64,000 nucleotides of DNA from Bacteroidota bacterium (GTDB taxonomy: Bacteria > Bacteroidota > Ignavibacteria > Ignavibacteriales > Ignavibacteriaceae), in assembly GCA_022564295.1 (NCBI GenBank), contig JADFLR010000003.1:1-64000 (forward strand), given 5' to 3'. A program made the translations under genes and the position numbers. Below, piece by piece: positions 35,762 through 42,100 of the stretch (positions within the stretch are counted from its first letter, which is position 1; each line of letters starts with the position of its first letter). The notes beneath the pieces are model-generated. The model was not told the origin of the DNA. It made no database searches and saw only the letters and a program-made list of their open reading frames with translations.

Positions 35762-35958
35762 AATATAACAACAGATATTCCAATTAAAAACTGGATTTAT
35801 GATATTTTTGCATTTGAAGTCGTTTTTAAAGATTATATTAAGGCAATCACATTAGTAAAACCAAACATATTATGTAGATTTTAATCCGCTCCATTTTTTG
35901 CAAAATTGTTTCAAACCTTCAAGTACAAATAATATTACTTGATGAATTCCTGCCTTTT

Positions 35959-36160
35959 ATTCCAACCAATTCAGCACAATATTTGGAATGCAAAAATGAT
36001 GATGTCTGATCATCTCCTCCCATAATCTGATCACTCCTGTCTTGTGCAGAAGCCTCCTATAGTGGTCAGATTAGGCAGTCGGGTAAAATTGGTAATACTG
36101 TAGAAGTCCTCCTCACTTTATTCTCATTACTAATGAACCCGGCTGTCTGTTTTTATTTTC
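35959..36160 (+). ncRNA. Candidate structured small RNA with C-rich loops and terminator
   Basis: The 421-base gap after the cupin gene has a run of hairpins. Stem one: ATTCCAA/TTGGAAT near 35960-35990. Stem two: TCTGATCACT (36026) with AGTGGTCAGA (36061), 10 bp. Stem three: GGCAGTCGGGT (36074) with ACCCGGCTGTC (36137), extended by ATTGGTAAT (36088) with ATTACTAAT (36126). TGTTTTTATTTT follows. The non-Watson-Crick pairs are G-U only if the plus strand is transcribed. CCTCC, complementary to the Shine-Dalgarno core, occurs three times (near 36016, 36053, 36109), twice in loops that share TGyAGAAG. The 5' end and promoter are unknown. An extended terminator of the cupin gene is an alternative. 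Confidence 0.5.
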
Positions 36161-36182: not shown

Positions 36183-36914
36183 CTACTTTGTTTTATTGCT
36201 TTCAGTTTCAAATAATTCATCCGGAAGACCTTGATTGACTTTATAGTTCGTATAGGTTATGTAAACCTTTCCCGTTGTACTATTTGATATTTTGTTACTA
36301 TCGTCATCATCATCCAACTGCCCATCCATTCCTCGCGGGAACATCATTCTGTCAACAGAAAATGTAAATTCCATTTGGGAAGGCAGTTCATAATGATCAT
36401 CACTTTTCTCATAAGTAAAATCGATTGTGAATGTTCCGGTTGGTTTCTTTGTTGATTCCACCCGGATGATCAAATTCCTGGTTTGATCGATCCAAAATGT
36501 GCTGAGAATAATATCGCCATCATTCCCCAATGGAATAATTTTTACAACAGATGTGGGAATATCTCGTATTGTATCTTCCCGCTCGTATAATGCTGTGTAT
36601 TTACCGCTTATCAAACCCAAAGGTGAAAAATCCAAACCCTGCCTTGGTAAAAGTGCAAATTTCTTTGACTCAACATGAATTTTATTCGGCTGCTTAAAAT
36701 AAAGTTTAGCTTCCGAATCAGGAACTTTTAAAAAATCCACATCAATTTTTACATGAATATCAACTTCATAATCCTCAATCTTTTTAAAAGCTTCTTTAAC
36801 TCCGTCTAATATTTCATCCGGGTCCTTACTCTGCGGAGAAAATTCACTCATAGTAATAAAGATCATCAAAGACAGTAAAACAAATTTTAGTTTTCTCATA
36901 CTTATCATCTGCAT
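36183..36914 (-). CDS. Exported LolA-like outer-membrane lipoprotein-sorting family protein
   Basis: A 243-residue secreted protein (alternative start ATG at 36899, MRKLKFVLLSLMIF, which begins the signal peptide cleanly). The mature part follows the LolA/LppX pattern: an early helix (DEILDGVKEAFKKIEDYEVDI), strands such as SEAKLYFKQPNKIHVES, and FWIDQTRNLIIRVE. An acidic run (QLDDDDDSN) sits near the end. It could carry lipids or lipoproteins across the periplasm. It is the last gene of a three-gene unit with an ABC exporter, two bases after the permease, so it may serve that transporter. Confidence 0.65.
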   Translation of the reverse strand: MQMISMRKLKFVLLSLMIFITMSEFSPQSKDPDEILDGVKEAFKKIEDYEVDIHVKIDVDFLKVPDSEAKLYFKQPNKIHVESKKFALLPRQGLDFSPLGLISGKYTALYEREDTIRDIPTSVVKIIPLGNDGDIILSTFWIDQTRNLIIRVESTKKPTGTFTIDFTYEKSDDHYELPSQMEFTFSVDRMMFPRGMDGQLDDDDDSNKISNSTTGKVYITYTNYKVNQGLPDELFETESNKTK

Positions 36915-39155: not shown

Positions 39156-42100
39156 ATGCAAATCACTAGACTATTTACAAAAGCAGGAGATGATCCTTTA
39201 GCATCCTTAAAATTTGTTAAAACCACTTCAGAAATAAAGAACCCGGATGGCTCCTTAGTATTTAGAATGGAAGACGTAATGGTTCCGGAGGGCTGGTCGC
39301 AGGTAGCTATTGATATTATAGCGCAAAAGTATTTCAGAAAAGCAGGAGTTCCTAAGTTACTAGTGCGGTTAGATGAAGAAGGTATTCCTGAATGGCTTCA
39401 ACCATCTGTTCCCGATGAAGAAAAACTAAGTCAGCTGCCTGAAGAAGACAGACTTACTTCTGAAATGGATTCAAGGCAGGTTTTTCATCGTTTAGCTGGT
39501 AACTGGACTTACTGGGGATGGAAAGCGAATTACTTCGATACTGAAGAAGATGCACTGGCATACTATGATGAAATGAAATATATGCTTGCCAATCAAATGG
39601 CTGCACCCAACAGTCCTCAATGGTTTAACACCGGCTTAAACTGGGCTTATGGTATCTCCGGTCCTTCACAAGGTCATTACTATGTAGATCATGAAACGGG
39701 CGAATTAACTCAATCATCGGATGCTTATACACACCCGCAGCCGCACGCTTGTTTTATCCAGTCAATAAATGATGATTTGGTTAACGAAGGCGGCATAATG
39801 GACCTTTGGGTTAGAGAGGCAAGACTTTTTAAATACGGTTCAGGAACAGGTTCTAACTTTTCGAATATTAGAGGTGCAGATGAAACTTTAAGCGGTGGAG
39901 GAAAATCATCCGGATTGATGTCGTTCTTGAAAATTGGTGACCGTTCAGCGGGCGCTATTAAATCCGGCGGAACGACACGAAGAGCAGCTAAAATGGTTAC
40001 TCTGGATTTGGACCATCCGGATATAGAAGAATACATAAACTGGAAAGTTATTGAAGAACAAAAAGTTGCTGCACTGGTTGTAGGTTCCAACCTTGCAAAT
40101 TATCACCTTAACTCTATTATGAAAGCGTGTTACGCTGAACATCCGGAGAACGATAGATTTAACAAAAAAGAAAACAAGAAATTAAAACGTGCAATTATAG
40201 AAGCAAGAAAAGCAATGATTCCCTACAATTACATCGACAGGGTTATTCACCTTGCAAAACTTGGATTCAAATCAATTGAATTTCCTGTGTACGATGTTGA
40301 TTGGACTTCTGAAGCATACACAACTGTTTCGGGACAAAATTCCAATAACTCAATACGCGTTACAAATAAGTATATGAATGCAGTTATTGATGACGGAGAA
40401 TGGAATCTCTATTGGCGCATAGAAAAGAAAAAAGCCTTAGAGGAAGGAAGAGAACCAAAACCTTGCAAAACCTTAAACGCAAGAGATCTTTGGGATCAAA
40501 TTTCATATTCTGCATGGTCTAGCGCTGATCCGGGTATTCAATTTCACACAACAATTAATGAGTGGCATACCTGCCCGGAAGATGGTGAAATTAAAGCTTC
40601 CAACCCTTGCAGTGAGTATATGTTTTTAGACGATACTGCTTGCAATCTTGCTTCGCTTAACCTGGTTAAATTTTATAATACGAAAACACGTAAATTTAAT
40701 ATTAATGCCTATAGGCACGCATCAAAATTATGGACGATTGCTCTTGAGATAAGTGTTCTTATGGCACAGTTCCCAAGTAAAGAAATCGCAATGAAGAGTT
40801 ATAACTTCAGAACCCTCGGATTAGGGTACGCAAATCTTGGGTCTCTTCTTATGCTTCAGGGAATTCCTTACGACAGTAACGGAGCTTTTGCAATTTGCGG
40901 TGCCCTAACCGCCATTATGCATATGACTGCGTATTCTACATCGGCTGAAATGGCTGGCGAGCTTGGACCTTTCCCAAAATATGAAATAAATAAAAAACAT
41001 ATGCTGAAGGTTATAAGAAACCACCGCAGAGCAGCTTATAATGTGCCAAATGAAGAGTACGAGGGACTATCTATCTATCCAATGGGTATCAATCCACAAC
41101 ATTGCCCTTCAGACCTGCTGAAAGCAGCAAGAGAAGATTCTGACAGAACCCTTGAATTGGGAGAAAGATATGGTTTTAGAAATGCACAGGTAACCGTAAT
41201 TGCCCCTACAGGAACAATTGGATTATTAATGGATTGCGATACAACAGGCGTTGAACCTGATTTTGCTTTAGTGAAATTTAAAAAACTTGCCGGTGGCGGA
41301 TACTTTAAAATTATAAATCAATCTATTCCACCTGCATTAGAAAGTCTTGGTTACAATAAAGATCAGATAAATGAAATAGTAAAATATGGCAAAGGACAGG
41401 GAACTTTAAACGGATGTCCTTACATCAATCCCGAATCACTTAAAGCAAAGGGATTTACTGACGAAGCTATCGTAAAAATTGAAAAAATGCTTCCGGGTGT
41501 ATTTGAAATTGGTTTTGCATTTAACAAGTTTACTTTGGGTGCAGATTTTCTGATAAAAAAACTTGGATTCACAAACGAATTAATCGATTCATTCAGTTTT
41601 GATCTTTTGAGTGAATTAGGATTTTCGAAACAGGAAATTGCATCGGCAAACGATTATGTTTGTGGAACAATGACGATTGAAGGTGCACCTTTTCTTAAAC
41701 ATGAACATTATCCTGTATTTGACTGCGCGAATAAATGCGGAAAGAAAGGCACCCGGTTTATTCGTCCTCTTGCTCATATTATGATGATGGCATATTCGCA
41801 GCCCTTTATTTCAGGAGCTATATCAAAAACAATCAACTTCCCTAATTCTGCTTCCATTGATGATGTAAAAGATGCTTATATGCAAAGCTGGAAATTCGGT
41901 ATTAAAGCAAATGCATTGTACCGTGATGGTTCAAAACTATCTCAACCATTAAACTCTGTAAGTGATGATGATATTGAAAGTTTGATGGAAGACAAGGAAA
42001 AGAATGATATTGTTAAAGTAGCCGAAAAAATCATTCATCGCTACATTGCTAAAAGAAGAAGATTGCCGGATAGAAGAACAGGTTACACTCAGAAAGCAAA

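Follow-up and report, generated by a model that had tools for sequence, protein, structure and literature searches.

A conserved structured RNA with three CCUCC segments in Ignavibacteriaceae

A previously undescribed RNA gene, conserved in Ignavibacteriaceae, was found on the plus strand of the window, the whole 64,000-nt stretch of DNA that was analyzed. Its reality as a structured RNA is well supported, and the existence of a conserved, structured plus-strand RNA at this position is close to certain. The predicted transcript has two hairpins and three exposed CCUCC-type segments, resembling anti-Shine-Dalgarno (anti-SD) sequences, which could block ribosome-binding sites of mRNAs (Table 1).

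Structure and conservation of the RNA

The consecutive hairpins, the T-tract (36150 to 36159), and the three plus-strand CCTCC motifs (at 36016, 36053, and 36108) reported in a first-pass annotation of the sequence were all recovered at those positions. The stems that it had put at 10 and 20 bp correspond to P1, which measures 10 to 12 bp, and to P2, in which a basal stem of 11 bp and an upper stem of 6 to 7 bp together give about the claimed length.

Table 1. Positions in the window of the predicted RNA, its elements, and the convergent neighboring gene
Feature	Position	Strand	Basis or conservation
Conserved upstream element TTGATGAATTCCTGCCTTT, ending in the distal promoter-like box CTGCCTTT (35950-35957)	35939-35957	+	Identical or nearly so in both genera
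Proximal promoter-like box AATATTTG	35978-35985	+	Conservation 0.89; spacing from distal box exactly 20 nt in 9/10 genomes
Predicted small RNA	35992-36158	+	Start predicted from box position, end from T-tract; fold z -4.49; covariance model matches in 10 genomes
Anti-SD site 1, UCUCCUCCC, single-stranded, 5' of P1	36013-36021	+	97% mean column conservation, 10 sequences
Hairpin P1	36024-36072 (36024-36035 with 36061-36072)	+	All cells (100%) paired in 10 genomes; both sides changed in 4 pairs
Anti-SD site 2, AGCCUCCU, in P1 loop	36051-36058	+	Invariant in 10/10 sequences
Hairpin P2, terminator stem	36074-36147 (36074-36084 with 36137-36147)	+	99% of cells paired; changes on both sides in 8/11 pairs
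Upper stem P2a of P2	36091-36096 with 36126-36131	+	72.7% paired in model alignment, weaker
Anti-SD site 3, GUCCUCCUCACUUU, in apical loop of P2	36106-36119	+	No change within genus g1; genus g9 has GCCCUCACUU
T-tract after P2, intrinsic-terminator-like	36149-36159	+	Sequence
Convergent LolA-like gene, last of ABC-2 operon; neighbor, outside the RNA	36183-36914	-	Pfam LolA_like E 8e-4, below curated cut-off

The plus strand of positions 35959 to 36160 gave a fold of -55.3 kcal/mol with a z score of -4.49, which none of 200 shuffled sequences equaled, and z scores of -3.7 to -5.5 were obtained for four relatives. For the minus strand of the region, the z score was -1.10. Among ten sequences, 94.7% of cells were paired and 15 pairs were altered on both sides, in an alignment that was fitted to the model and is therefore biased toward the model structure. 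None of 500 shuffles attained any of five covariation measures, slid-partner controls reached at most 47.5% paired, and a MAFFT alignment of five sequences, made earlier, showed changes on both sides in six pairs. The conserved structure with compensatory changes expected of a small RNA (sRNA) was thus present; the first-pass annotation had made its reading depend on conservation and covariation of the stems in relatives, and the RNA passed this check. Across the ten genomes, P1 and P2 contained 23 G-U wobbles on the plus strand and none on the minus strand (no A-C cells), bearing out the earlier claim that the wobble pairs make sense only for a plus-strand RNA and indicating that the constraint acts on that strand. 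A few A-C cells occurred in P2a, a shorter helix whose alignment is less certain. A small extra hairpin (GATG..CATC, window positions 36001 to 36017) is possible at the 5' end of the RNA in genus g1; it partly covers the approach to site 1, contains a mismatch in genome G005, and is absent in genus g9.

Sites 1 and 2 were the best-conserved part of the RNA, with conservation of 0.97 for the site 1 core UCUCCUCC and 1.00 for site 2, compared with 0.76 for paired columns and 0.64 for the other unpaired columns. The site 1 core is degenerate in G036, which has UCUCUUC instead, and site 3 showed a conservation of 0.81, the motif being CCCUC in genus g9. No other 160-nt stretch of the 64-kb window carried three CCTCC motifs on one strand. 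The sequence TGyAGAAG, annotated as common to two of the loops, is indeed shared by them in the window, but it is not kept in the third loop of the relatives.

Upstream of the RNA, two promoter-like boxes are arranged as CTGCCTTT-N20-AATATTTG, with conservation of 0.94 for the distal and 0.89 for the proximal box versus 0.53 for the intervening spacer, and an element TTGATGAAWTY ahead of the boxes was likewise conserved. The geometry is similar to that of the Bacteroidota promoter TTTG/TAnnTTTG (PMC7366714), although the boxes here are imperfect. The upstream element was also considered as a regulon motif and rejected, as no clear excess of copies was seen elsewhere. At the 3' end, the T-rich tails after P2 were good in the window and in genus g9 (ATTTTTATTT-like) and poor in G001, G002, and G005. 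A generic scan for sigma-70 promoters and short-loop terminators detected neither at the RNA, as expected from the promoter type and the long terminator loop.

Distribution and genomic setting

By DNA search, the region was found in four of the five other genomes of genus g1, at 74 to 81% identity. A covariance model rebuilt from ten sequences was then applied to 164 genomes of the order and gave strong single copies in five genomes of genus g1 and five of genus g9, with nothing convincing in the rest of this set. The RNA was present in 10/10 genomes in which the site is assembled, and the carriers belong to two genera of Ignavibacteriaceae; they include BMS3Abin03, Ignavibacterium sp. bin94, and Ignavibacteriaceae MAG43. 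In one further genome of each genus (G003 and G038), the contig ends within the LolA-like gene, and these two are therefore not taken as lacking the RNA. Plasmids gave no match, and pattern matches outside Ignavibacteria, together with one viral match, were rejected as lacking covariance-model support. Against Rfam 15, the only match in the window at the gathering threshold was a tRNA elsewhere, and plus-strand positions 36000 to 36158 gave no match even at an E value of 10. A literature search returned no paper linking Ignavibacteriaceae with small RNAs, and the present RNA adds a covariation-supported family for this group.

The RNA lies tail to tail with the same LolA-like/ABC-2 operon in 9/10 genomes, or in 9/9 of those with the operon on the contig; in G004, the contig breaks within the RNA and the operon side is therefore not visible. 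The LolA-like gene itself was found in 73 of 80 genomes of the family. The gene on the other side varies by genome, being a cupin, a dienelactone hydrolase, or an AraC-type regulator, and at most loci it is on the same strand as the RNA; in the window it is the cupin, which ends 200 to 230 nt before the RNA. Downstream in the window, no same-strand gene was present within 3 kb, the next plus-strand gene starting at 39156. The RNA is therefore not a 5' leader, and a cis-acting riboswitch or attenuator was ruled out.

At the syntenic place in genus g10 (loci L089, L090, and L092), a GC-rich terminator hairpin was observed 3' of the LolA-like gene. Its large loop contains CCCUCC in L090 and L092 and CCUC in L089, and TGACTTT...AATATTTT-like boxes are located upstream. 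The hairpin is possibly a diverged relative of the RNA that lacks P1; the model gives it only an E value of about 1, and these loci were left out of the carrier count.

Shine-Dalgarno use and proposed mode of action

The 16S rRNA ends in CACCTCCTTTCT, and its anti-SD is therefore intact. Among 275 sampled genes, GGAGG preceded the ATG in 11, versus 1 to 3 in shuffles, and AGGAG in 22, versus 4 to 12. The statement in the annotation that several genes of the window use GGAGG held for about three of them, but such genes are few overall. SDs in the host genome are real but rare, as they are in Bacteroidota generally (PMC6847099, PMC9976891). With the anti-SD intact and SDs present in few genes, GGAGG would constitute a selective address.

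Targets were sought in a 360-kb sample that included the window, and by patterns. Duplex energies of the three sites against 249 start regions were only marginally better than those of shuffles (equaled in 3/40, 3/40, and 10/40 shuffles). The pattern AGGAGGCT before ATG was not enriched over a reversed-pattern control in 12 genomes, an excess of exported or secreted proteins among SD genes was not significant (P of 0.07 to 0.14), and the long complement AGGAGGCTTCT, searched in the genus, matched almost only the sRNA itself. Among the best pairings were those with two secreted paralogs, whose leaders contain GGGAGGCAUAUG, and with further exported proteins. Near 209704 and 211021 of G000 contig C44 (L105/L106 region), two neighboring genes for paralogous secreted proteins have the common leader GGGAGGCATATG; it is complementary to sites 1 and 2, which makes these genes possible targets. 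The best-conserved complement was the khpA leader AUAGGAGGCU, which contains a 10-nt complement of site 2 in several g1 genomes. It was rejected as a target because a similar leader also occurs in genus g5, in which no copy of the RNA was detectable. The leader of this KH-domain gene, AGGAGGCU(CC) before ATG, is conserved in g1 and g9 and similar in g5 (L150, L154, L157, L161, L170, and L183), and its SD is unusually strong for the lineage. Another 10-nt complement, GATCAGATTA, is directed at the 5' strand of P1 and lies within the leader AATAGGAGGATCAGATTAATG of a LytTR-type response regulator (G000 C44:206148, minus strand); this complementarity beside an SD may be due to chance.

Blocking of SDs in trans by the CCUCC sites is the likeliest mechanism and, on balance, a probable one. 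The gene would produce an sRNA of ∼165 nt from its own plus-strand promoter, with transcription predicted to end at the P2 terminator hairpin. The RNA would display its three CCUCC-type segments in a single-stranded stretch and in the loops of P1 and of the terminator. As redundant seeds, like those of LhrC and NfeR1, they would pair with the SD regions (GGAGG/AGGAGG) of the minority of mRNAs in this genome that have one and so deny the 30S subunit access to these mRNAs. Their strong conservation fits translation repression at GGAGG. It is doubtful, though conceivable, that the RNA is a dedicated regulator switching off an "SD regulon" as a group in a lineage with mostly SD-less mRNAs. If the CCUCC sites do act on mRNAs, multi-site SD blocking by an sRNA would reach a phylum whose ribosomes largely ignore the SD, there would be a reason for a few genes to keep their SDs, and SD-directed regulation would operate without a detectable Hfq in the genome.

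The main rival to SD blocking is that the partner is not the SD region of mRNAs and that a structured non-coding RNA binds a protein or the ribosome through its CCUCC loops, for example as a decoy for an RNA-binding protein or by mimicking the 3' tail of the 16S rRNA. A modest chance is given to this explanation. The conservation of structure and loops is silent on the partner, and target complementarity was not above chance in the sample. Hfq was not found in the search, while the KH-domain protein KhpA is present, and in Bacteroidia the CCUCC tail of the 16S rRNA sits in a pocket formed by bS21, bS18, and bS6 (PMC9976891). The conserved seed, however, is the exact complement of the SD, as in characterized SD-blocking sRNAs, and neither a known protein motif of such a kind nor an Rfam match was found. 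The annotation had also offered a structured 3' end of the cupin transcript as an alternative to an sRNA. More generally, the region could be part of the 3' untranslated region (UTR) of the upstream plus-strand gene, either processed out or serving only to terminate transcription and to insulate the gene from the convergent operon; P2 and the T-tract after it have the form of a terminator, and the same-strand upstream gene at most loci, with the cupin ending 200 to 230 nt before the RNA, would suit such an origin. The upstream gene changes among genomes, though, while the RNA and its fixed-spacing boxes stay, which is why an independent sRNA is favored. In addition, P1 and sites 1 and 2, the most conserved parts, would be unneeded in a terminator, and the fixed 20-nt upstream spacing is promoter-like. 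The 3' UTR explanation is therefore unlikely.

Two further explanations have far less to recommend them. Since the element directly follows the LolA-like stop codon at every locus with that gene on the contig, the functional RNA might lie on the minus strand, where the LolA-like operon would have a 3' UTR with GGAGG motifs. The weak minus-strand fold and the distribution of wobbles led to rejection of this very improbable arrangement, and the T-tracts and boxes are likewise oriented for the plus strand. The long inverted repeats might also suggest a small palindrome, mobile or repeated, that is devoid of regulatory function, but with one copy per genome, the same place everywhere, and stems that covary while the loops are held constant, the chance of this is close to negligible.

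Relation to known regulatory RNAs

The RNA can be likened to LhrC and NfeR1 in its proposed working, but it is not a member of either family: the motifs, hairpin number, copy number, and lineage differ, in addition to the lack of an Rfam match. LhrC, present in five copies in Listeria monocytogenes, blocks translation by pairing with the SD region and binds its targets without requiring Hfq (PMC4132741); pairing with the SD region was tested both for LhrC and for NfeR1 (PMC10746234). Like LhrC1-5 (PMC4132741), the present RNA is small and intergenic, and its three redundant CU-rich sites fall in a stem-loop, a single-stranded stretch, and the terminator loop. While this three-site anatomy was found, the UCCC seed, the multiple copies, and homology to LhrC were not: the seed here is CCUCC, there is a single copy rather than five, the phylum is another one, and there is no match by sequence or model. 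The single-stranded site lies 5' of P1, so that the order of the sites differs, and function is proven for LhrC1-5 whereas it is predicted here.

In the alphaproteobacterial NfeR1/alpha-r14 (cuckoo) RNAs, three unpaired anti-SD motifs are similarly the best-conserved part, with variable stems, and in NfeR1 these motifs are redundant seeds (PMC10746234). There, however, the identical CCUCCUCCC occurs in each of three hairpins, an arrangement that was not found in the present RNA, which has three non-identical CCUCC sites distributed over two hairpins and a single-stranded stretch. C-rich loops as SD-binding seeds are also a feature of RNAIII, RsaE, SprD, and FsrA of Firmicutes (listed in PMC4132741); their structures and hosts are different, and SDs are widespread there as opposed to a small share of genes here.

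The autoregulation of rpsU in Bacteroidota (PMC9976891) is comparable in that the SD serves as a regulatory address in an SD-poor lineage. The anti-SD partner in that case is the 16S rRNA of bS21-free ribosomes, a role that would fall to a small RNA in the present system. As a target of the present RNA, rpsU was rejected, its SD GAGGUGA matching the 16S rRNA and not the RNA. In all ten searched genomes of g1 and g9 (L197-L207), rpsU (bS21) has an apparent TTG start behind a conserved extended SD, GAGGTGA, to which the 16S tail is exactly complementary. The arrangement agrees with rpsU autoregulation as known from Bacteroidia and Chlorobia, and Ignavibacteria would thereby be added to the groups that have it.
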